33,581 bases of DNA from NCBI GenBank assembly GCA_012959865.1, contig DUCH01000129.1, forward strand, positions 1 through 33,581, read 5' to 3'. The notes under the pieces were generated by a model that searched no databases, was not told the origin of the DNA, and saw only the letters and a program-made list of their open reading frames with translations. Source of the DNA: Myxococcales bacterium (GTDB taxonomy: Bacteria > Myxococcota_A > UBA9160 > UBA4427). Shown piece after piece: positions 9,042 through 20,577 of this stretch (position 1 is the stretch's first letter; every line of letters starts with the position of its first letter). A program made the translations under genes and the position numbers.

Positions 9042-9971
9042 TCAGTATCTTCTCTTGTGACCCGGTCTCAAGCGTCGAGCAGGTTTCACCGCCTCTTGGA
9101 TCCGCTTCTGCAATTTTGCTTTGAGGCGCTCCAGACGATCCCACCCGTCGCGCGACTCCAAGCGCTCGAGACCCGGGCGAGGTTGCTCGAGCCCGCGCTC
9201 GGTCAGTTCCAGCGCGGCCCCCAGTTCTCGCCGACTCTCAAGGAAATAAGCGTAGAAGAGATAATTGAGGGGCTCCTCGACATCGATATCCAGAGCGCGT
9301 TGATAGTATTTCTGGGCTCGCTTGCTGGAGCCACCCAAAAAAAAGGGCACCGCGTGATCGATCGTCCCCAGGGTTCGTGCGGCAGCCCCTTCGGCGAAAG
9401 CGGGATCCAACTCCAGGCTGCGGCGCAGGTGTCGGCGAATCGAACGAAGGGTAAAAATCATTTTCACCACCCCGACGGACTCGGCATAGAGCGCCGTATT
9501 GACACCGACTAGCAAATGACAAGGCGCACAATCGGGTTTCAGCTTCGTGGCCTCGAGCGCCGCATCACGCCCCTGGACGAAGAACGCTTCTTTTTCAGGT
9601 TTCTGTGTCGCCACTCGGTTGCCGAGGAAATAGCAGGTCATTGCGAGCCGCCAGGCCGCCTGCCAATCCTCTGGGTCAGCTCGATAGAGGGCCTCGTAGC
9701 GCTCGTTCGCAAAGATGGCCCGGGCGGAATCGGCCCGCTCCAGATAGGCCTGATCGGCGTCAGCGAAGCGCGGAGCCGGCTCCCAACCCGCCTCGGCGAC
9801 CGCCTCACCCGAATAAATTGAGACGAATCCGCCCAAAACCCCGAGGACAACGCATAGAAGCTTGCTGCATAGAAGCTTGCTGCAGCCGTTCCAACTCGCC
9901 GGGTAAATTATTCGGCCTCGAGTCGTCCGCTCGGCCGACTTTCGCTTTCCATCGATCTGCCCCTTGCTCAT
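9042..9971 (-). CDS. TPR-containing exported or membrane-anchored protein
   Basis: The 309 residues start with a basic segment, then a hydrophobic stretch (about 34-56) that looks like an uncleaved anchor or late signal peptide. They continue with helical repeat pairs such as DWQAAWRLAMTCYFLG, LKPDCAPCHLLVGVNTAL, LRRSLELDPAFAEGAAARTLG and AQKYYQRALDIDVEEPLNYLFYAYFL. The pattern, including a GGSSKRAQKYYQRAL element, recalls the TatT/TPR family linked to TRAP transport, but that match is tentative. It begins 48 bp after the RND pump gene on the same strand and ends 53 bp before the amidase. No ribosome site is obvious at 9971, so the true start could be downstream. A 15-bp tandem duplication sits in the anchor (see repeat). 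Confidence 0.6.
   Translation of the reverse strand: MSKGQIDGKRKSAERTTRGRIIYPASWNGCSKLLCSKLLCVVLGVLGGFVSIYSGEAVAEAGWEPAPRFADADQAYLERADSARAIFANERYEALYRADPEDWQAAWRLAMTCYFLGNRVATQKPEKEAFFVQGRDAALEATKLKPDCAPCHLLVGVNTALYAESVGVVKMIFTLRSIRRHLRRSLELDPAFAEGAAARTLGTIDHAVPFFLGGSSKRAQKYYQRALDIDVEEPLNYLFYAYFLESRRELGAALELTERGLEQPRPGLERLESRDGWDRLERLKAKLQKRIQEAVKPARRLRPGHKRRY
9852..9881 (-). repeat. 15-bp tandem duplication inside the TPR gene
   Basis: GCATAGAAGCTTGCT occurs twice in direct succession and is followed by GCA. The length is a multiple of three, so the frame is kept and the protein reads CSKLLCSKLLC at the edge of its hydrophobic anchor. It looks like a recent in-frame duplication. Confidence 0.85.
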
Positions 9972-10019: not shown

Positions 10020-13000
10020 TCACTGCTTGATCGCCACGGTCTCCCCGCTGCTCCCGCCCCCGAATGTTTCACGAAAACTTCGCTTGACCCATTCCGTTGC
10101 ATCATCGAGCAGCAGATAAAAGACGGGGACCACGAGCAGTGTGAGCAGGGTCGAGGAAAACATTCCCATGGCGGTGGCAATCGCCATGGGGGCGCGGGTC
10201 TCGGAACCGGGACCAATGCCCAGGGCCGCGGGCAGAACACCGAATATCATCGAAATCGCCGTCATCAGTACCGGACGCATGCGGATCGGCGCCGCCGTCC
10301 GCATGGCCTCCACCTTGTCCATGCCACCGCGGCGCAATTGGTTCGCGTAGTCGACCAGTAGAATCGAATTTTTTGTCACCAAACCCAGTAATAGGATAAT
10401 CCCGATCATGCTGAAGATATTCAGGCTATGGCCAAAGAGCAGGAGCCCACCGAGAGCCCCCACCATGGAAAGCGGAAGGGCCAACATCACCGTGAGGGGA
10501 TGGATGAGGCTCTCAAACTGAGCGGCGAGAATCATGTAAATGACCAAAATTCCGAGCCCCATGGCAAGACCAAACTGATCGTTGCCCTCCTGCATGGCCT
10601 CGGCCTCTCCCGACATGGCGAGACTCATACCTACGGGCAGAATTTCCGCAGCAACCCTCTCGGCGTGCTCGACGGCTTCGGCGAGTTTGATCCCTTGGAG
10701 GTTGGCGCTGATATTGACGCTGCGCTGGCGATCGATCCGCGTGATTTCCGACGGAGCGGCGCCCATCTCGACGGTCACCAGATTTCGCAGCGCCACGGGC
10801 TCTCCGCTCCGATTGCGTACGTAGAGTGCCCCGATCGCATCGGGATCCGCCCGGTCTTCTCCGTCCATCCGCATACGAATATCGTACCGGCGACCGTCTT
10901 CCTTGAACGTTCCCACGTCCATTCCGCCCACCATCATTTGGATCGTCTGGGCAATGGACCGAGCATCGACCCCCATGGCGGCAGCTTTCTCACGGTCTGG
11001 CACCACCTTGAGTTCCGGGAGACCGAGTTTCAGGCTCTTGTCGAGATCGACGAAGCCCGGTACCGCCGAAAGCGCGGCGATGAACTCATCCGAGATCCGG
11101 TCGAGTTCCTGGAGAGAAAGATTTCCGCGCAGATCCACGTCGAAACCGCCGCCCCGGCTCATCATGGACTCGCCGGGATTGAAAATCCGGATCTGCCGCC
11201 CGGGAATCGAACCCAATTCCTTCCGCGCCGCCCCGATCACGTCCATCACACTCCGGGTGCGCTCTTCGTTGCTGGCGAGGGTGCCGAAGATCATCGAACG
11301 ATTGCTCCGGCTGGTGGGGTCGTAACCGCCTCCGGTGCCCGCGGCCGAGAAGATGCCAACGACCTCGGGTTGAGCGAGAAACCAGGCCTCGTCTTGTTTC
11401 ATGTACTCCAGCGAAGCCTGCAAAGAAGTTCCGGGCAGCGCCTCGGAGTTGCTGAAGAAAATTCCCTCGTCCGAAGGCGGAAAGAATTCCCGCTTGAGTT
11501 GCGTCCCGAAGACAACAGCCAGACCCAACGAGGCCAGGGTTGCTGTGGCCGTCAGGGCACGATGGCGGAGACTCAGATCCAGCGCGCGACGGTAGCCATT
11601 TTCCAGCCCCCCGAAGCCGCGCTCGAGCCGCGCATAGATACTCTTTGCGCTGCGCGGTTTGGGGGGTGGCATGCGCGCGGCAAGCATCGGGGTCACTGTC
11701 AGCGCGACGAAAAGCGAGATCATCACGCTCCCGGCGACCACCAGCCCAAACTCGCCCAGGAAGCTGCCCACCAGCCCCTCTACGAAAAACACGGGGATGA
11801 AGACTGCCGCCACCGAAACCGTCGCCGCCGTGGCCGCAAAGGCGATCTCCCGGGTGCCGGCCTTTGCGGCAGCCTTGGCATTTTCACCCTGCTCCCGGTG
11901 TCTCTCGATATTCTCGAGCACCACGATGGCATCGTCGATGACCACGCCCACCGCCAAGGTCATTCCCAGCAGCGTCATGGTGTTTAGCGTGAAACCAAAC
12001 AGCCAGACTAGACCGAAGGTTGCCACCAGGGAGACGGGAATCGCCAGGGCGACGATTAGCGTCGGCCGGGTTCGACGTAGGAAGACAAAGACGGTGAGGA
12101 CGGCCAGAAGCGCACCGACAACCAGAGTGAACTGGGTTTCTGCGACGGCTTCGCGCACACCCCTCGAAAAGTCGATAAAGCCGTCGCTATTTTCGAACTC
12201 GATGCCCTTGGGCAAGACGAGCTCGATCTCGTCGATGCGCCGCAGAACTTCGTCGACGATTCCCACGGTATTGCCACCCGATTGCTTGCGAATCCCCAAG
12301 CCTACGGTTTCTGCCCCGTTGTAGCGGGCGATCACATCTTGATCTTCGGCGCCGTCTTCGACCCGTGCTACATCGCGCAACAGAACCGGGGCACCGTCGA
12401 CATGGCTCACCACCATCCGTTCCAAGGACTGGATGGTCTCAAACTCAGCATCGGTGGTCACCGCATACTCGACTCGTTCGCCCTCTACCTTGCCCGCGGG
12501 CAATTCGACATGTTCCCGTTTGAAGGCCTGAAAAACATCGATGGCCGAAAGCTGGCGCGCGCGAAGCGCCTCACCATCGAGCCAGATCCGGACATTGCGT
12601 TCAAGGCCGCCGAATATTGCGACCCCCGCGACACCCTGAATGGTTTCGAAGCGCGGATTGATCTGGCGTTTGACCGCCTCCATGGTAGCCACCGCACTCT
12701 TGCTGGTCTTGAGCGGAATCCAAAGCACCGGCTGGTCGTTGGGATTGAAGGTATTCACCATGGGGGGCTCAACTGCGGCCGGGAGCTCGTAGCGAGCCTG
12801 GGCGACTTTATCCCGCACCTCCTGCGCCGCGACATCCAGATCGGTCCCGAGTTCAAACTCAACCTGGATCATCGACGCACCGCGAAAGCTCGTCGAAGAG
12901 ATTTTGCGAACGCCCGCGATGGTGTTGAAGCCCTCTTCAAGGACATCGGTCACGTCTTCTTCCATGCCTTCGGGCGTGGCGTCATCGAGCAGTGACGTCA

Positions 13001-13139
13001 CCGAAAGCACGGGGAATTCCATATTGGGAAACTGGTCTACCCCAAGCCGGTTGTAGCCGAGCACGCCAAATACGATAAGCGCAAGGATCATCATCCAGGT
13101 CAGAACCGGACGTTCGATGGAGAGGTCGGAGAGGCTCAC
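10020..13139 (-). CDS. RND efflux pump inner-membrane transporter (AcrB/HAE1 type)
   Basis: The 1039-residue length and twofold organisation are standard for hydrophobe/amphiphile efflux RND pumps. Evidence includes the N-terminal SIERPVLTWMMILALIVFGVL helix, the proton-relay Asp pair in GVVIDDAIVVLENIERH (about 400-415), and the matching lysine of the second half in LGLVTKNSILLVDYANQ. Both porter regions are present, for example the TQLKREFFPPSDEGIF segment after helix 7. It should expel drugs, lipids or solvents with proton-motive force. The GTG start overlaps the stop codon of the membrane-fusion gene by 4 bp. No outer-membrane channel gene is nearby, so a TolC-like partner must be encoded elsewhere. 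Expression is probably controlled by the upstream TetR repressor. Confidence 0.95.
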   Translation of the reverse strand: MSLSDLSIERPVLTWMMILALIVFGVLGYNRLGVDQFPNMEFPVLSVTSLLDDATPEGMEEDVTDVLEEGFNTIAGVRKISSTSFRGASMIQVEFELGTDLDVAAQEVRDKVAQARYELPAAVEPPMVNTFNPNDQPVLWIPLKTSKSAVATMEAVKRQINPRFETIQGVAGVAIFGGLERNVRIWLDGEALRARQLSAIDVFQAFKREHVELPAGKVEGERVEYAVTTDAEFETIQSLERMVVSHVDGAPVLLRDVARVEDGAEDQDVIARYNGAETVGLGIRKQSGGNTVGIVDEVLRRIDEIELVLPKGIEFENSDGFIDFSRGVREAVAETQFTLVVGALLAVLTVFVFLRRTRPTLIVALAIPVSLVATFGLVWLFGFTLNTMTLLGMTLAVGVVIDDAIVVLENIERHREQGENAKAAAKAGTREIAFAATAATVSVAAVFIPVFFVEGLVGSFLGEFGLVVAGSVMISLFVALTVTPMLAARMPPPKPRSAKSIYARLERGFGGLENGYRRALDLSLRHRALTATATLASLGLAVVFGTQLKREFFPPSDEGIFFSNSEALPGTSLQASLEYMKQDEAWFLAQPEVVGIFSAAGTGGGYDPTSRSNRSMIFGTLASNEERTRSVMDVIGAARKELGSIPGRQIRIFNPGESMMSRGGGFDVDLRGNLSLQELDRISDEFIAALSAVPGFVDLDKSLKLGLPELKVVPDREKAAAMGVDARSIAQTIQMMVGGMDVGTFKEDGRRYDIRMRMDGEDRADPDAIGALYVRNRSGEPVALRNLVTVEMGAAPSEITRIDRQRSVNISANLQGIKLAEAVEHAERVAAEILPVGMSLAMSGEAEAMQEGNDQFGLAMGLGILVIYMILAAQFESLIHPLTVMLALPLSMVGALGGLLLFGHSLNIFSMIGIILLLGLVTKNSILLVDYANQLRRGGMDKVEAMRTAAPIRMRPVLMTAISMIFGVLPAALGIGPGSETRAPMAIATAMGMFSSTLLTLLVVPVFYLLLDDATEWVKRSFRETFGGGSSGETVAIKQ

Positions 13140-14302
13140 CCGTCCACTCCTGAAGCCAGGGAGGAAACGGGGGCGGCGACCTGGGGCTCAGCGACGGGAC
13201 GTCCATCGCGGGTACGAATCGATACCGCTCCGCCATCGAGGAGATTCGCCTGGCCCCGAACCACCACCTGATCTCCGGCGTCAAGCTCCCCGCGCACCTC
13301 GACCCAACCGTCGACGAATACCCCGGTGGTGACGTGGACCCGTTGCACGCGGTCGGTCCCCACCATCCGGTACAACGCCGCCCCTGAAGCCCGCTGGATC
13401 AGGGCCTCCTCGGGCACCATCAAGACATCCCCCCGTTCGCTCACGCCCAGTTCAATATGGGCAAACAGACCGGGCCGAAGTCGGCTATCCGCATTCGAAA
13501 GTTCTGCTTTGACCCGAAGGGTTCGAGTCAGAGAGTCTATGGTGGGCGACACCACTGTGACGATGGCGGCAAAGCGCTCTTCGGGAAACGGAGCCAAACT
13601 GACCTCGACGCTCTGACCGGGACGGACTCGCCCGGAATCCACCTCCGCGACCGAAAATTCCGCCTCGATGGGGTCAAGGGTGACGATTTCGAAGAGGGGA
13701 AGACCCACGCTCAAATACTCGCCCACACTGACACTGCGCAGCGCCACCAGACCCGAAAAGGGCGTGCGCACCGACGCATCGGCCAACGCCCGCCGGGCCA
13801 GACCCACCCGGGCCTCGCTGGCACCCTTGCGCGAATGGGCGAGTTTCAATGCCGTCCGCGCTTCGTCGAGTCGCGACTGCGAAGCCGCATCGCGTTTTTT
13901 GAGGTTCTGAATCCGGTCCATCGCGCGCCAGGTCTCCACCACCTGGGCGCTGGCTTCGGTCAACTGGGCATCGGCGCTCGCGAGTTCCAGTTCTCGACGC
14001 TGGGGATCGATCTCCAGAAGAATCTGTCCCGCGCTGACCGCCTCTCCCTCCTCTACCAAAATCGACGTCACCTGGCCGGGAATCTGAGCCGCAATCGTTG
14101 CTTCGGCCTTGGCCACAAGTTGCCCCGTCGCCGTGATCCGGTCGATCACATCGCGAACGACGACCCGCGAAACCATGACCGGCGGCGCGAGCTGCGAATT
14201 GGCCGGAGGCTCGGCGTCCTCGGCGCAGCCAAGAACAAAAAGGAAAAACAAACCAGCAACGGCTGGCATCACGAAACGCCCGTAGCAATTTTTTAGGGCC
14301 AT
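13136..14302 (-). CDS. RND membrane-fusion (periplasmic adaptor) lipoprotein
   Basis: The 388-residue adaptor links the RND pump to an outer-membrane channel. It has a lipoprotein signal with Cys26 in FVLGC. The HlyD/AcrA-type body follows: biotinyl-lipoyl half (ATIAAQIPGQVTSILVEEGE, about 75-95), an alpha-helical hairpin (about 110-175 with RIQNLKKRDAASQSRLDEAR), the second lipoyl half (ASVRTPFSGLVALRSVSVGEYL), beta-barrel (VEVSLAPFPEERFAA), and a membrane-proximal domain ending near residue 370. The ATG at 14302 is preceded by GGGGAG. An ATG further upstream would overlap the tetR stop region. It lies 19 bp after tetR and overlaps the pump gene by 4 bp. Confidence 0.93.
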   Translation of the reverse strand: MALKNCYGRFVMPAVAGLFFLFVLGCAEDAEPPANSQLAPPVMVSRVVVRDVIDRITATGQLVAKAEATIAAQIPGQVTSILVEEGEAVSAGQILLEIDPQRRELELASADAQLTEASAQVVETWRAMDRIQNLKKRDAASQSRLDEARTALKLAHSRKGASEARVGLARRALADASVRTPFSGLVALRSVSVGEYLSVGLPLFEIVTLDPIEAEFSVAEVDSGRVRPGQSVEVSLAPFPEERFAAIVTVVSPTIDSLTRTLRVKAELSNADSRLRPGLFAHIELGVSERGDVLMVPEEALIQRASGAALYRMVGTDRVQRVHVTTGVFVDGWVEVRGELDAGDQVVVRGQANLLDGGAVSIRTRDGRPVAEPQVAAPVSSLASGVDG

Positions 14303-14321
14303 GGTGGCTCCCCTTCTCCGA

Positions 14322-14966
14322 TCAACTTTCGACATTATTCCCGCCCCCAAACTCCAGCGAAGGTAAAAATTCCGCCAGCCAGCCCGCCAAGAGAACATCG
14401 ACACTCGCTTCCAGGAGATTCGGATTCCAATCGAAGTCGGGCTGAACCGCGGGAAGGGAAATCAAACCGTGCAAGCAGGCCCATAGCGATTGCCGGATCA
14501 ATTCGAGTCGCACTTCGCTGATCTGGCCGCTCTGGATCAGAGCGTTCAAGGGCTTCGACATCAGGTCGACGGCCTTCTGGTGCGCCGAGTCCGGAGGCAG
14601 TTCGTGGGCTTTCGGCTGGTTCATCAGATAATAGTGGGTGGGATTGCGAATCCCCCAGCGCGCGAAATCGAGGCAGAGGGCTCGAGCCTGGGCCACAGGA
14701 TTCGCCTTGGCGGGGGCTCGTTCCAATTGCGCCACAAGATCCTCCAGCCTCTCCTCGAGTACGGCATCGATGAGCCCCGGTTTGTCGCCGAAATAGTGAT
14801 AGATAGTGGGCGCCGAGTAGCCGCAGCGCTCGACCAGACCGCGCATGGAGAAACCCCCTAGCCCCGATTCGGCGAGCAGAGACTCGGTGGCATCCAGAAT
14901 CGTACGCCGGGCATCGGCGCGATTTTGCTGACGCCGCAACTCGGCGGCTTGAGCGGGGGGGGACAT
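14322..14966 (-). CDS. TetR/AcrR family transcriptional repressor
   Basis: The 214-residue protein has the N-terminal TetR helix-turn-helix at about residues 17-64 (ARRTILDATESLLAESG, then MRGLVERCGYSAPTIYHYFG) and a ligand-binding domain of mostly helical, unrecognised sequence. It is the first gene of the run tetR-adaptor-pump and is divergent from the acyl-CoA ligase gene. A paired palindrome between the two (15035-15066) is the likely operator. It probably represses the efflux operon, itself, and perhaps the ligase, and is released by a substrate of the pump. The ribosome site GAGGG lies seven bases before ATG. Confidence 0.9.
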   Translation of the reverse strand: MSPPAQAAELRRQQNRADARRTILDATESLLAESGLGGFSMRGLVERCGYSAPTIYHYFGDKPGLIDAVLEERLEDLVAQLERAPAKANPVAQARALCLDFARWGIRNPTHYYLMNQPKAHELPPDSAHQKAVDLMSKPLNALIQSGQISEVRLELIRQSLWACLHGLISLPAVQPDFDWNPNLLEASVDVLLAGWLAEFLPSLEFGGGNNVES

Positions 14967-15034
14967 AGGGGAACCCTCATCGGCTGAACGAACTGGGTAG
15001 ACGGCCTGCCCCCGGCGACACCGTGGAGCGGCTC

Positions 15035-15066
15035 CTAACGGCGTTTCATTAGTGTAACGACGTTAG
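15035..15066. promoter_or_regulatory. Candidate TetR operator: paired palindrome
   Basis: Arms CTAACGGCGTT (15035-15045) and AACGACGTTAG (15056-15066) are inverted repeats with one mismatch around a 10-bp spacer. Each arm is itself nearly palindromic (TAACG-N-CGTTT and TAACG-A-CGTTA), with centres 19 bp apart, close to two helical turns. That geometry fits two TetR dimers side by side, as in QacR. It lies 69-100 bp upstream of the tetR ATG and about 170 bp from the divergent ligase ATG. Confidence 0.65.
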
Positions 15067-15236
15067 CATCGGACTTCTTTTAGCACACGGTTCGGTAAGA
15101 TCAAACTTCCCATCGGGAGACAGCCTGCCAAAGTTCCTGGCCAGACCTCCCTCAGGGGCTGTAGAGCACTCGAACGCTGGCCGAAGGGCGGGGGTCCCGG
15201 TCCCGCCGCCCGTTGGAGGCCAGGAGAATTCACGGA

Positions 15237-16757
15237 ATGGATACTTCCGAAAATAGCCACCTGGCCCCCACGGCAGAATTTGACCCCAGTGCCGGAGGGG
15301 CCGGCTCCCTGACCCGATCTTGGGCCACCCACTGGAACAAGACCCCCGAGCGGCCCTGCTTGTTTTTTGGCCCGGGCGAAACCCTGAGCTACGGCGAACT
15401 CGAAGCCGCATCCCGGCGGGCCGCGTCCCGGCTTCATGGAACCGGATTGGTTGCCGGAGATCGCATTCTGCTTTCTTCGGCGAACTGCGCTCACCTCGTG
15501 ATTGCCCACATCGCCTGCCTGCGGTTGGGGCTGGTGGTCGTCCCCACCAACACCGCGTACCGCGAGGCCGAAGTCAGGCACGTGGTTGCCGACGCCCGGC
15601 CCCGAGCCGCCCTTGTCGACGATCCCCAGCGCGGGCTTTGGATTCAGTCCGCAAACGACCGCATTCACGTCGTCTCGCCCGACCTTCCCCTGCCCGACGC
15701 ACCGACCCCCGAACTCGATATCGCGGCGCCGAATGACCCCGCTCTCATCGGCTACACATCGGGAACGACTGGACGACCCAAAGGGGCAGTCCTTTCCCAC
15801 CAGAACCTGCTGTCCAGCGTCGAGTCTCTTCGCTTGGCTTGGCGCTGGACTTCCGACGACCGCCTGATCCTAACCCTCCCCCTTTTTCACATGCACGGGC
15901 TGGGCGTCGGGCTTCATGGAACCCTCCACGCCGGCGCCAGCGCGGTGGTGCTCTCGGGTTTCGAACCCGACTCGCTGTTTGACGCCATCGCGGAAAACGA
16001 GGCCACTCTGTTCTTCGGTGTGCCCACCCACTATCACCGCTTGATCGAGTCCACCCGGGTGGAAGAACTCGCCCGGCTCCGGCTCTGCGTTTCCGGGTCC
16101 GCCCCGCTGCCCGCCGATCTCCACACCCGATTCGAAGCACGAACTGGCCAGCGCATCGTCGAGCGATATGGGATGACGGAAACCGTCATGCTGGTCTCCA
16201 ACCCAATCGAAGGCGAACGCCGTCCGGGCAGCGTTGGGCTGCCCTTGCCCGGAGTCGAAATGCGTTTGGTGGGCGACCCCGGCGAGATCGAAGTTCGCGG
16301 CCCCAACGTTTTTACGGGGTATTGGGAGCGACCCGAAGCCAACGCCGAAGCTTTCCGAGCCGACGGTTTCTTCCGCACCGGTGATCTCGGGGAACTCGAC
16401 GATGCGGGCTACCTCACCATCACCGGGCGTGCCCGGGAACTTCTGATCAGTGGGGGGTACAACGTTTATCCGCGTGAGGTCGAAGAGGCCTTGGGCGAAC
16501 ACTCTGGGATCACCGAATGCGCCGTAGTCGGCACCCCCTCTCGTGAGTGGGGCGACACCATCACGGCCTACGTGGTGACTCGTCCCGAAGACTCCATCAC
16601 CGCCGAGGGAATTCGCGATTTCCTTGCCCCGCGCCTGGCCCCGTACAAACACCCGCGTATCGTGCACCACATCCAAGCCCTGCCGCGCAATGCCCTCGGC
16701 AAAGTCCAGAAGCACCGCCTGGACGATGGACGCGTCCTCGACGAAGAACCGGCTTGA
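15237..16757 (+). CDS. Acyl-CoA synthetase, malonyl-CoA synthetase (MatB)-like
   Basis: The 506-residue enzyme belongs to the ANL adenylating superfamily and should form an acyl-CoA from acid, ATP and CoA. The phosphate-binding loop starts at Gly172 (GYTSGTTGRPKG). The adenine/ATP motif is YGMTET at Tyr311, the hinge region is TGDLGELDDAGYLTITGR, and the catalytic lysine is Lys489 in NALGKVQK. The stretch after YGMTET (SNPIEGERRPGSVGLPLPGV) is close to what I recall of malonyl-CoA synthetases, which is why I favour a short dicarboxylic or methylmalonate-type substrate. Related medium-chain or aryl acid ligases cannot be excluded. The ATG has AGGAG 10 bases upstream. It converges with the CoA transferase 9 bp downstream. 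Confidence 0.85.
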   Translation: MDTSENSHLAPTAEFDPSAGGAGSLTRSWATHWNKTPERPCLFFGPGETLSYGELEAASRRAASRLHGTGLVAGDRILLSSANCAHLVIAHIACLRLGLVVVPTNTAYREAEVRHVVADARPRAALVDDPQRGLWIQSANDRIHVVSPDLPLPDAPTPELDIAAPNDPALIGYTSGTTGRPKGAVLSHQNLLSSVESLRLAWRWTSDDRLILTLPLFHMHGLGVGLHGTLHAGASAVVLSGFEPDSLFDAIAENEATLFFGVPTHYHRLIESTRVEELARLRLCVSGSAPLPADLHTRFEARTGQRIVERYGMTETVMLVSNPIEGERRPGSVGLPLPGVEMRLVGDPGEIEVRGPNVFTGYWERPEANAEAFRADGFFRTGDLGELDDAGYLTITGRARELLISGGYNVYPREVEEALGEHSGITECAVVGTPSREWGDTITAYVVTRPEDSITAEGIRDFLAPRLAPYKHPRIVHHIQALPRNALGKVQKHRLDDGRVLDEEPA

Positions 16758-16766
16758 GATGTCCCG

Positions 16767-17966
16767 TCAGCCGACGATTCCGCCAGCGCGAAGTTCCTCG
16801 ATCTCATGGGCCAAGCCGAGTTCTTCGAGAATTGCGTCGGTCTGCTGTCCGAGGGTGGGCGCCGGCCCGCCCAAGCGCGCCGGCGTTTTCTCGAAACGCA
16901 CCGGCGGACGCGGCTGACGCAACGGGCCCGCCACGGGGTGTTCGGAATCAACAAGCAGCCCGACCGCCTTGGCATGGGGATCGGCAGCGAGTTCGGCGGG
17001 GGACAGAACTACCCCGCACGGGGCACCTTCGGCCTCGAGCCGCTCCATCACCTCCCGAGTCGTGAAGCTTTCAGCAGCGAGGTAGATCTTCTGCATCATG
17101 GCAGCCATGGCCTCTGGGTTCTGTCGCCGAGCCGCGATGGTCTTGACCTCTGGAGCGTCCCAACCTTCAACACCAAGACCCCGACAGATGCCCGCGAAAT
17201 CTTCGTCGGAAACCGGCGCCGCGATCCCCCAACCATCTTTGAATCTCCACAGGCGTTGACCGTGGGAAAAACTCGAAGGCTGACTGCCATCGGAATCGCG
17301 CAGCACCTCGTTGCCCGCAGCGTCGGCCCAGACAAAGTTGACTACCGCATCCAGCATGGGAACTTCGAGATGCTGCCCACCGGCGCCGCGTTCCCGGGCA
17401 AAGAGCGCCGACGCAATCGCCTGGCTCGCCGTAAGGGCGGTGATTTTGTCCGCCGCCACCTGATAGATGAGTTGGGGCTCGCCGGTTTCCACGTGGGACT
17501 GGCTCGCCGCCAGTCCCCCATAGGCCTGAACCACCGGATCGTAGGCGCTCTTCTCCCGATAGGGACCCTCGCTCCCGAAACCGCTGATCGAGACATAAAT
17601 CAGTTCAGGGTTGGCTTCCCGCAGTTCCGCATAGGAGAGGCCCAGGCGTTCGATCACCCCTGGCCGAAAATTCTGGACAAAAACATCCGCTTCCCGGGCC
17701 AGACGGCGGACGATCTGCTGGCCCCGGTCGGTCTTGAGATTCACGGCCAGCGAGCGCTTTCCGCGATTGACCATCTGGGCCATGGCGCTAATCCCCCCTC
17801 TGGCGACGCCGATCCAACGGCCGATATCGCCGATCCCCAAGGCCTCAACCTTGATTACCGAGGCCCCTTGATCGGCCATGATTCCCACCGCCCACGGCCC
17901 CGAGAGTGCGATGCTGAGATCAACCACCCGTATTCCCTGCATGGGGCCGGGCTTTGGTTCGGACAT
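16767..17966 (-). CDS. CaiB/BaiF family (class III) CoA transferase
   Basis: The 399-residue protein has the class III CoA-transferase fold, which moves CoA between organic acids through an aspartyl thioester. Signatures are VVDLSIALSGPWAVGIMADQGA (about 14-35), VIKVEALGIGD, NLKTDRGQQIV, FVQNFRPGVIERLGL (about 96-110) and the likely catalytic Asp143 in SAYDPVVQAYGG. Substrates in the family include formate/oxalate, carnitine, succinate/benzylsuccinate and bile acids; the exact one is not readable here. AAGGAG precedes the ATG by six bases. Placed next to an acyl-CoA ligase, epimerase-like protein and P450, it probably serves acyl-CoA catabolism. Confidence 0.9.
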   Translation of the reverse strand: MSEPKPGPMQGIRVVDLSIALSGPWAVGIMADQGASVIKVEALGIGDIGRWIGVARGGISAMAQMVNRGKRSLAVNLKTDRGQQIVRRLAREADVFVQNFRPGVIERLGLSYAELREANPELIYVSISGFGSEGPYREKSAYDPVVQAYGGLAASQSHVETGEPQLIYQVAADKITALTASQAIASALFARERGAGGQHLEVPMLDAVVNFVWADAAGNEVLRDSDGSQPSSFSHGQRLWRFKDGWGIAAPVSDEDFAGICRGLGVEGWDAPEVKTIAARRQNPEAMAAMMQKIYLAAESFTTREVMERLEAEGAPCGVVLSPAELAADPHAKAVGLLVDSEHPVAGPLRQPRPPVRFEKTPARLGGPAPTLGQQTDAILEELGLAHEIEELRAGGIVG

Positions 17967-18043
17967 CGGTCACTCCTTGGTGCGAATCAGTCGATCGGGA
18001 AAGTGGGCGGTTCAGCGGGCGTCCAACGGGCGGCGCATGCGGG

Positions 18044-19144
18044 TCATTCGAAATCGGCCGAAGACGGCGCGCGCCCTCCCGGGCCGCTGTAAGCCAGCGT
18101 ATACCCCGGCTCGCGCTCAAACTCAACTTCGGGCATGCGCGCCAGAACGTCCTGCCACTCGGCGATCAGGCGATCTTCCGCCGGGTAGTCGAAGGGGTCC
18201 TGGAGCACGATCTCTTCCGGGCCGCCGGGCGCCGGGGGATGGTCGACCAGCCATCGCGCGGTCCGCGCCAGGGCCTCCTCGGCGGGGACCACATCGCGAT
18301 AGCCCAACTCTGCCCGCAATCGCGTCAGGTCGTAGACCCGATGGGTAGACGCGGGTTGCATGAGCAATGGTCGAGCCGGCGTGGCGAGGGCATAGGGCAT
18401 CGAAATGATTTCGAGAGAACGATTCAGCGCTTTGGCGATGACCGCCACGACCTGGGCCAGGCTGAGCACCTGCTCGTCACCGCAGTTGTAGATCCGTCCG
18501 GCACTGGCTTCGGGCCGATCCACCGCCAACAGAACCGCATGGGCGAGATTCTCCGCATATCCGCAATGGCTGAGGCTGAGCCCCGCATCGGGGAGGATGA
18601 TCTGCCTGCGCCCATCGAGAACGCGGCGCACGATGCTCCAATCCCGAGGGAGGGGCTGCCGGGGGCCGTAGACAATGGGATAGCGAAAATGAGTCGCCTG
18701 GGGATGATGCTTGAAGACGGCATCTTCGGTCAGCGCGATCCGCAACCCCTTCGCGTCCTGTTCGGCCCGGGCCACACGCTGCGCTTCCTCTGGAACCGGG
18801 ACTCGCATGCCCGGGGGCTCGAGCGCTGCGGGATTCATGTATCCAAGATACGAGGGGCCACCTCCGAGCGAGATCAACCGCACGCCCCGGTCAGCGGTCA
18901 ACTCCGCAATGCTGCGCAATCGCCCGTAGGCGGCAATACAGAGTTCGAATGCCCGGCCCTTCAAAGCGTGGAGCAGGGCTTGGGGGTCCCAGGGATCGAC
19001 ATGAAGGTGCTCCACATCTTGTGGAATTTCGGGGACTTCGTGCTTGCCAGTATGAAGAATCGTGACCGCGTAGCCGCGTTCTCGCAGCCCGTTGACGATG
19101 AAGGGCCCGGTGGGACCCGTACCTCCAATCACAAGAGCCTGCAT
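18044..19144 (-). CDS. NAD(P)-binding epimerase/dehydratase-like protein (atypical SDR)
   Basis: The 366 residues start directly with a Rossmann nucleotide-binding loop, G7-G-T-G10-P-T-G13, and continue with extended-SDR features: LISLGGGPSYLGYMNP (about 118-133), HFRYPIVYGPRQ (about 172-183), and a late YNCGDEQVLSLAQVVAVIAKAL segment typical of NAD-dependent epimerases. I do not see the usual Y-x3-K pair clearly, so it may be an atypical SDR with redox or binding function. The ATG at 19144 sits 10 bases after GGAGG. It is divergent from the P450 gene across about 218 bp and lies 77 bp upstream of the CoA transferase on the same strand. Confidence 0.8.
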   Translation of the reverse strand: MQALVIGGTGPTGPFIVNGLRERGYAVTILHTGKHEVPEIPQDVEHLHVDPWDPQALLHALKGRAFELCIAAYGRLRSIAELTADRGVRLISLGGGPSYLGYMNPAALEPPGMRVPVPEEAQRVARAEQDAKGLRIALTEDAVFKHHPQATHFRYPIVYGPRQPLPRDWSIVRRVLDGRRQIILPDAGLSLSHCGYAENLAHAVLLAVDRPEASAGRIYNCGDEQVLSLAQVVAVIAKALNRSLEIISMPYALATPARPLLMQPASTHRVYDLTRLRAELGYRDVVPAEEALARTARWLVDHPPAPGGPEEIVLQDPFDYPAEDRLIAEWQDVLARMPEVEFEREPGYTLAYSGPGGRAPSSADFE

Positions 19145-19362
19145 ATCCCCGTCGCACCTCCGCGGCCGATCATCGCACACCCCCTCCCCCGCCCGCGATT
19201 CGATTCTGGCGCGGCTAAATTTGTATGCGAGGCGGGTGCAAAGCTGGATGAATGCCTACCCTCGGAGCCTTGGCACGAGTGCAGTCGTTGAGAAATTCCG
19301 ATGTCCGCAGGACATCAACGGGCGCTGGGACTTGCCGCACTGGAAAGAAGGAAACCTGGAAT

Positions 19363-20577
19363 ATGCCCGACCACCCGACTCGAAAAGAAATCCAACTCCT
19401 TGACGGCGATTTCTATATCGATCGCCCGCTTCAACATTACGAGTGGATGCGAGCGAACGCGCCGCTCTACTACGACGAGATCGGGGAAATCTGGGGAGTT
19501 ACTCTTCACGAGGACATCATGACGGTTTCCAAGACGCCCGAGATCTTCTGCTCGGGTCAGAGCTCGCGCCCAGAGCGGGGAATCTTGATTCCCTCCATGA
19601 TCAACATGGACGACCCCGACCACAAGCGACGACGCAGCCTTGTCAATAGCGGGTTCACGCCCCGTCGCCTTGAAGAGAGCGAAGCAAAAATTCGCCGAAT
19701 CACGCATCAATTGATTGACCGTGTCTGCGAACGCGGTGAGTGCGAGTTCGTACGCGAGATCGCGGCGCCGCTTCCCCTGATCATGATTGGCGACATGCTG
19801 GGGATGCCCGAAGAAGACTTTGAAACGCTGCTGCGCTGGTCGGAGGATATGCTCGCCGCCACATCGGCCACCGCGAGCCCCGAACTCCAGGAGCGCGCCC
19901 AGCAGGCTGGCATCGAGTACGCCACGTACGCGCTTCAAGCCATCGCAGCCCGGCGGGAACACCCCAAGAACGATCTACTTTCAACTCTGGTCCATGCCGA
20001 GATCGACGGGCACAGTCTGAACGAAGAAGCGCTGATCCACGAATCCTTGTTGATCTTGGTGGGCGGTGATGAAACGACTCGGCACGTCATCACTGAAGGA
20101 ACTCTTGCTCTGATGCACTTCCCAGACCAACGGAAGAAGCTGATCGACGACCCCAGAAAGGTCCCCAACGCTGTGGAGGAACTTCTGCGCTGGGTCTCGC
20201 CCATCAAGAACATGAATCGCACCGCAACCCGCGATACCGAGCTGCGCGGCCTGAGAGTGCGAGAGGGCGACCGCTTGCTGCTCCTTTACCCATCGGGCAA
20301 TCGGGATGAGAGGGTCTACGACAATCCCAATCTTCTCAACGTCGAACGCAGCCCCAATCCTCATGTCGCCTTCGGGGGGTACGGAACCCATCATTGCCTC
20401 GGCGCAAGCCTCGCTCGGCTGGAGTTGCGGATCATGTTCGAAGAACTGAGTCGTCGCCTTCCCGATCTTGAACTGGCCAGTGATGACCCGCTCCCTCAAC
20501 GGGCCTCGAATTTCATTACCGGCATCGAAGCAATGCCGGTGCGGTTTACGCCGAGCAAGCCCCTGGCCGCCCGCTAG
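19363..20577 (+). CDS. Cytochrome P450
   Basis: This 404-residue soluble bacterial P450 should hydroxylate an unknown hydrophobic substrate using electrons from a ferredoxin partner not seen here. The I-helix oxygen-activation motif is GGDETT (Asp236, Thr238), the K-helix ExxR is Glu273-Arg276, and the heme ligand is Cys345 in FGGYGTHHCLGASLARLE. Family resemblance is to CYP families that act on steroids, terpenoids or fatty acids (for instance CYP125/CYP142-like proteins), but I cannot assign one. The start ATG at 19363 has AAGGA about 11 bases upstream; the frame remains open 37 codons earlier without a ribosome site. The adjacent CoA-ester genes suggest oxidative breakdown of a lipid-like substrate. 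Confidence 0.93.
   Translation: MPDHPTRKEIQLLDGDFYIDRPLQHYEWMRANAPLYYDEIGEIWGVTLHEDIMTVSKTPEIFCSGQSSRPERGILIPSMINMDDPDHKRRRSLVNSGFTPRRLEESEAKIRRITHQLIDRVCERGECEFVREIAAPLPLIMIGDMLGMPEEDFETLLRWSEDMLAATSATASPELQERAQQAGIEYATYALQAIAARREHPKNDLLSTLVHAEIDGHSLNEEALIHESLLILVGGDETTRHVITEGTLALMHFPDQRKKLIDDPRKVPNAVEELLRWVSPIKNMNRTATRDTELRGLRVREGDRLLLLYPSGNRDERVYDNPNLLNVERSPNPHVAFGGYGTHHCLGASLARLELRIMFEELSRRLPDLELASDDPLPQRASNFITGIEAMPVRFTPSKPLAAR

Follow-up and report, generated by a model that had tools for sequence, protein, structure and literature searches.

A predicted double-palindrome operator with a conserved 19-bp spacing at a tetR-RND efflux locus of Myxococcales and related uncultured bacteria

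What is the role of two closely spaced palindromes that lie between a tetR gene and a divergent acyl-CoA ligase gene, and which of the two flanking transcription units would they serve? The question is raised by a stretch of 33,581 nucleotides from a Myxococcales bacterium (contig DUCH01000129.1), which is referred to here as the window. A preliminary description had proposed that two near-identical palindromes with centres 19 bp apart form a larger inverted repeat in a divergent promoter region, that this geometry suits two cooperating TetR dimers, and that a single repressor could control both an efflux pump and the ligase. The genes and sites concerned are the following:

15035-15066: composite double-palindrome site, two TAACG-N-CGTTA-like sites with centres 19 bp apart, predicted operator
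15036-15046: tetR-proximal palindrome TAACGGCGTTT (TAACG-G-CGTTT), one mismatch in the outer pair
15055-15065: promoter-proximal palindrome TAACGACGTTA (TAACG-A-CGTTA), perfect
14322-14966, minus strand: tetR, regulator with TetR_N and TetR_C_33 domains, presumed repressor
13136-14404, minus strand: RND periplasmic adaptor (RND_mfp), true start probably inside the open reading frame, past the tetR stop
10020-13139, minus strand: RND efflux permease (ACR_tran)
9042-9971, minus strand: TAtT-family protein behind the pump, weakly like the sterol transporter BstC
15237-16757, plus strand: MatB-like AMP-binding acyl-CoA ligase, divergent from tetR, its control by the operator unsupported

On the minus strand tetR is followed, in this order, by the adaptor, the RND permease, the TAtT-like protein and an amidase. 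The regulator scores 51.2 bits against the TetR helix-turn-helix profile PF00440 (cut-off 24), which places it in the TetR family, and the best matches of its structure model (pLDDT 93) are TetR folds. The highest-ranking Foldseek matches, Rv1816 (5d1r) and 3on2 (E 4.0e-6 and 5.7e-6), are distant at 21-26% identity and have only the common TetR fold in common with it. The first helix is long, and its arginines R11, R12, R16 and R20, which are kept in at least 90% of 43 sequences, might, judging from the model, reach DNA between the two sites. As for the gene behind the pump, the TAtT-like protein was matched in this position only in four same-genus loci among the 45 relatives' loci introduced below.

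On the opposite side, the ligase starts with an ATG at 15237 (plus strand; an in-frame TTG lies at 15213) and tetR starts at 14966 (minus strand), which leaves 270 bp between the two start codons. The ligase scores 481.8 bits against NCBIfam PRK07514 (MatB malonyl-CoA synthetase), below the cut-off of 558; its nearest solved structures are malonyl-CoA synthetases, either MatB or MatB chimeras, and given these 'MatB-like' is a fair name despite the sub-cut-off score. The region from 15237 to 20577 of the window forms a block of ligase, CoA-transferase, epimerase-like and P450 genes, which is partly conserved beside tetR in the family; in two other genomes (G014, G024) the ligase occurs without these companions within the stretch read.

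The composite site itself, CTAACGGCGTTTCATTAGTGTAACGACGTTAG on the plus strand, consists of two palindromes of 11 bp each (TAACG-N-CGTTW) centred at 15041 and 15060, which combine into a 14-nt inverted repeat of 86% identity with 4 nt between the arms. To score it we used a 30-position matrix trained only on 26 orthologous operators from outside the window's genus. With this matrix the site reaches 29.3 on the minus and 28.0 on the plus strand, as against 7.9 for the runner-up in the window and at most 21.6 in 300 shuffled windows (~10 Mb). The two near-identical palindromes in a larger inverted repeat are therefore confirmed, both by the sequence and by the matrix. Their placement in a divergent promoter region is literally right, yet the operator is off-centre in the gap, with 69 bp separating it from the start codon of tetR and 171 bp from that of the ligase.

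The preliminary description had proposed a genome-wide motif search. In it the single word TAACGNCGTTW shows no enrichment, with 4 occurrences forward and 2 reverse against 12 and 8 in the reversed control, so that the significance lies in the pairing and its position rather than in the single palindrome. A regulon made up of many TAACGNCGTTW sites was considered and rejected, since the remaining three single sites do not exceed the reversed-control level; the finding of a single place for the pair in each matching genome at E<=0.01, described below, likewise speaks against it.

The conservation of this arrangement was followed through the relatives of the regulator. When the TetR protein was searched for in 60 genomes, 59 of them relatives and one that of the window itself, every genome gave a match, many of the matches being distant paralogs. 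We took the 45 best relatives' loci, of about 35% identity or more, from 43 genomes (two each in G008 and G021). Up to 350 bp upstream of tetR were then scanned for pairs of TAACGNCGTTA-like sites at each spacing between 8 and 35 bp. In 31 of 45 loci (the window included and L077, which has no upstream sequence, left out) the top spacing is exactly 19 bp, and with ties counted it comes first in 33 of the 45; shuffled sequences pick 19 in 28 of 900 cases. A second count, of loci scoring at least 24 at this spacing (shuffle maximum 23), also gives 31, with a slightly different membership: the score cut-off admits L040 and L041 and drops L058 and L079. Aligned, the 31 operators are 30 bp long with four TAAC/GTTA-like half-sites. 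In three of these half-sites each letter of AAC/GTT is kept in at least 29 of the 31, while the fourth, the inner one of the tetR-proximal palindrome, retains its first A in 19 operators.

Fifteen of 46 loci fall below the score cut-off, among them L077, L058, L066 and L070. The more distant orthologs L078 and L080 have a single palindrome, L043 and L055 show one clear palindrome by eye, and seven of the nine loci of genus g11 belong here with drifted half-sites. When 14 of the 15 were put through a generic palindrome test, 19 bp came out as the sole best spacing only in L058. In six of the g11 loci (L068, L071, L073-L076) the operator has taken a drifted form, TAACnnnGGTC-N8-GACC..., with GGTC/GACC-like inner half-sites and the 19-bp register kept, which is possibly a sign of co-evolution with the repressor. 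Scored leave-one-out, these six reach 26.6 to 41.3, although, being closely related, they lend the 19-bp register little weight. A third palindrome is also seen upstream of the pair, at 18 bp in L040 and L041 (genus g2) and, by eye, at about 20 bp in L066; in all three it sits at or near the -10-like element discussed next, and these loci possibly carry a tripled operator.

Upstream of the operator, on the tetR strand, two putative promoter elements can be recognised:

15078-15087, minus strand: -10-like element of the tetR promoter, TGTGCTAAAA, operator just downstream, called from conservation
15099-15105, minus strand: -35-like element TTTGATC, tentative, read from the sequence only

A sigma-70 consensus scan of both strands found no site, and the promoter calls rest on conservation instead. 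An NGCTA/CTATA element on the tetR strand, at most 35 bp upstream of the operator or running into it, is present in 26 of the 31 loci, as compared with a mean of 4.1 and a maximum of 10 in shuffles, for a pattern that was picked after inspecting the sequences. In many loci the operator begins ~8-15 bp past this element, while L061, L063, L065 and L067 read CTATAAC where the element continues into the first palindrome. Since the position of the promoter slides while the 19 bp stays, the constraint would seem to come from the bound protein rather than from the polymerase.

The pair is tied to one particular set of genes. In all 45 relatives' loci tetR is followed by an RND adaptor and in 44 also by the pump, the missing one being cut by a contig end; the pair stays with tetR, adaptor and RND pump whatever gene lies on the other side. 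With an operator model trained on 27 loci (the window and its genus included), 36 of 90 genomes of the class have a site at E<=0.01, in one place each among the best 73 or 150 candidates scored per genome, a search that weak extra sites may escape; in the other 54 no operator match reaches this threshold. We checked 33 of the 36 places, and all 33 have TetR and adaptor genes alongside. In G053 the TetR and operator matches have adjacent coordinates, and G085 and G088 are outside the 33 checked. One of the operator-bearing genomes (G067) lies outside the order, and the named relatives from another collection are assemblies of uncultured bacteria, most of which bear the label Myxococcota, Deltaproteobacteria or Proteobacteria and one that of Spirochaeta. 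Among weaker matches, three (E 0.3 to 0.5) have neither a TetR nor an adaptor gene nearby, and at E 0.1 to 1 there are a few further places away from tetR (e.g. G001:C223, E 0.12).

The regulator gene thus adjoins adaptor and RND pump, as is expected of a local TetR repressor of such a pump, and a palindromic operator lies at its own promoter, the latter placed by conservation. We consider it very probable that the site is the operator of the adjacent TetR, at which two dimers bind as a cooperative pair and repress tetR, adaptor and pump. One dimer would sit on each TAACG-N-CGTTA palindrome, and the two, 19 bp or 1.8 helical turns apart, would bind cooperatively where the tetR transcript begins. 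So placed, they would block RNA polymerase and keep tetR and the adaptor-RND pump genes repressed together, until some ligand or pump substrate releases the repressor. Binding, cooperativity, repression and induction at the site are in this way predicted from sequence. Of the two-dimer proposal in the preliminary description, the part that stands is a double operator whose geometry suits two TetR dimers at a conserved distance of 19 bp; the part that falls is the control of the ligase from the same site.

Could the palindromes belong to something other than this TetR? That another regulator binds the site, with tetR merely alongside, is very improbable, given that the strong matches track tetR orthologs across families and adjoin tetR wherever checked (33 of 33). 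We give even less credence to the idea that the inverted repeat acts as an RNA hairpin at the 5' end of the tetR transcript, in attenuation or stability, and not as a DNA site. The composite repeat does fold as a hairpin in the predicted leader, where a second conserved hairpin comes after it, but the z-score of this fold is only -1.44, both halves are palindromes in their own right, and the fixed 19 bp is left unexplained by an RNA loop. Moreover, part of the first palindrome would go untranscribed in several families, where the -10-like element extends into it.

The other reading of the preliminary description, namely that the same operator governs both the efflux operon and the MatB-like ligase and so couples export and activation of one acid, has to be weighed against the distribution of the ligase. 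A ligase divergent from tetR is found in 8 of 45 loci (four relatives in the genus and L040, L042, L044 and L045 of the family), but it is absent from 22 of the 31 operator-bearing loci. One of these 22, L063, has too short an upstream stretch for adjacency to be judged, and the same holds for L077 among the 45. Adjacency within the genus is itself weak evidence for co-control because much of the genus neighbourhood is conserved. G005, which belongs to the same genus as L040, has kept tetR and operator and has no close ligase (best match 41%).

Eight genomes of genus g11 carry a ligase of 56-63% identity on contigs other than that of tetR, and the upstream regions of seven (~450-490 bp; the eighth has 3 bp) were scored for an operator. 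With the usual matrix the seven give -13.9 to -2.6, none above the shuffle maximum, against at least 20.7 for the 31 operators. Since six of the seven genomes have drifted operators at tetR, a matrix of six drifted g11 operators was also applied; it gives -2.9 to 11.4, against at least 26.6 for left-out members. The highest value, 11.4 for the L242 ligase, is just above the shuffle maximum of this matrix (9.3), and the genome's own operator is of the usual type. G014 is the sole genome with an unlinked ligase and a usual-type operator at its own tetR, which makes it the cleanest case. The seven close homologues are thus without the operator by either matrix.

The geometry of the gap points in the same direction. 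The operator is on the tetR side, whereas a candidate -10 element of the ligase, GGGTATSCT or a close variant, lies 90-185 bp beyond it in seven of nine ligase-bearing loci (missing in the window and L040); shuffles give a mean of 0.4 and a maximum of 3 for this pattern, which was picked after inspecting the sequences. Among the Streptomyces TetR regulators described in the portion of PMC3511530 drawn on here, all five with gaps below 200 bp repressed the divergent gene. The four with longer gaps comprised one activator of that gene and three regulators that had no action on it, two of which bound away from the neighbour. The 270-bp gap of the window exceeds this 200-bp rule of thumb, which has known exceptions; AtuR, BpeR and Mce3R, as mentioned in the same portion of PMC3511530, are able to act across more than 200 bp on a divergent gene. 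By analogy, the window would fit the long-gap pattern of regulators that bind away from their neighbour. In view of the 8 of 45 adjacencies, the absence of an operator from all seven unlinked homologues, the candidate ligase -10 elements well beyond the operator and the 270-bp gap, co-control was rejected as unsupported, and we regard it as unlikely; in all likelihood the ligase just happens to adjoin tetR in one sub-clade.

Between the operator and tetR, the predicted transcript contains a further element:

15004-15032, minus strand: leader hairpin GCCGCTCCAC...GGGGGCAGGC of the predicted tetR transcript, lineage-specific

The pattern GCCGCTCCAC-N(9-27)-GGGGCAGGC follows directly on the operator in nine genomes, which belong to three genera (g1, g2 and g10), for example at 15004-15032 of the window (minus strand), at 8749-8777 of L036 and in L042. 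Eight of 30 genomes have the exact pattern, once each, and the ninth (G019) was found by a hairpin model. The element folds into a stem in which each strand has a bulged A. In the alignment of eight sequences (two of the nine being identical) 9 of 11 pairs are invariant, and each of two upper-stem pairs is altered at both of its positions in 2 sequences; the share of cells that pair is 98.9%, as compared with 37.5-60.2% in slid controls. The covariation score exceeds all 500 shuffles, but the observed values for pairs changed on both sides and for pair types were reached by 75 and 54 of 500 shuffles. These comparisons give modest support for a conserved RNA structure. A search of positions 14900-15300 against Rfam returned no known RNA family up to E=1. 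The hairpin model has some match at E<=1 in 35 of 60 genomes, the best beyond the nine being G041 (8.5e-4), G028 (0.0016), G001:C233 (0.0044), G046 (0.011) and G003:C59 (0.019); among the four match sequences inspected, those of G001 and G003 have a longer loop and a different bulge. It is conceivable, if rather doubtful, that the tetR-pump transcript of the sub-clade made up of these nine genomes, to whose three genera that of the window belongs, carries a small structured RNA element that adds RNA-level control to two-dimer repression. Such an element would consist of the invariant stem with its bulged A per strand under a short covarying upper stem, and might be bound by, e.g., a protein or a small molecule.

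The predicted two-dimer operator may be compared with several known systems. SmeT binds a 28-bp pseudopalindrome and, according to the passages of PMC3128119 cited here, represses the RND pump smeDEF and its own gene sterically. The likeness, which is drawn at the level of the TetR family only, lies in an operator within the promoter regions of pump and regulator and in steric repression of both (PMC3128119, same passages), the latter being what is proposed for our locus; the difference is that tetR runs here in the same direction as adaptor and pump, and that the operator consists of two complete palindromes 19 bp apart. Operators for a dimer of dimers, as given in the part of PMC4150764 used here, measure 28 bp in QacR, 32 bp in CgmR, 31 bp in Ms6564 and 22 bp in CprB. 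The 30-bp site falls within this range of ~22-32 bp and has half-sites for two dimers, so that it resembles the ~30-bp operators of these proteins as a predicted counterpart, although here two separate perfect or near-perfect palindromes stand side by side. CprB differs further in that its two dimers lie on opposite sides of 22 bp, as described in that part of PMC4150764. Finally, the operator of SCO7222 from Streptomyces coelicolor, given as TGGAACGNCGTTCCA with three repeats in the cited portion of PMC3511530, shares the AACG-N-CGTT core with ours. The likeness lies in this core motif alone, and the divergent target of SCO7222 is a monooxygenase gene at 146 bp.

A literature search over titles and abstract openings found no description of this regulator or of a 19-bp pair. 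As far as these openings and the cited portions of the literature go, double-dimer operators and TetR repression of RND pumps are already known, while this member, its 19-bp geometry and its spread were not found described.

For the biology of these bacteria, the analysis removes a tempting yet unsupported link between efflux and acyl-CoA ligation. It also provides a clean test case for a spacing rule, as the 19 bp are fixed while promoter position and half-site letters vary. For a group of uncultured bacteria, mostly labelled Myxococcota or Deltaproteobacteria, it predicts the regulator of a conserved RND pump together with the operator and the target operon.
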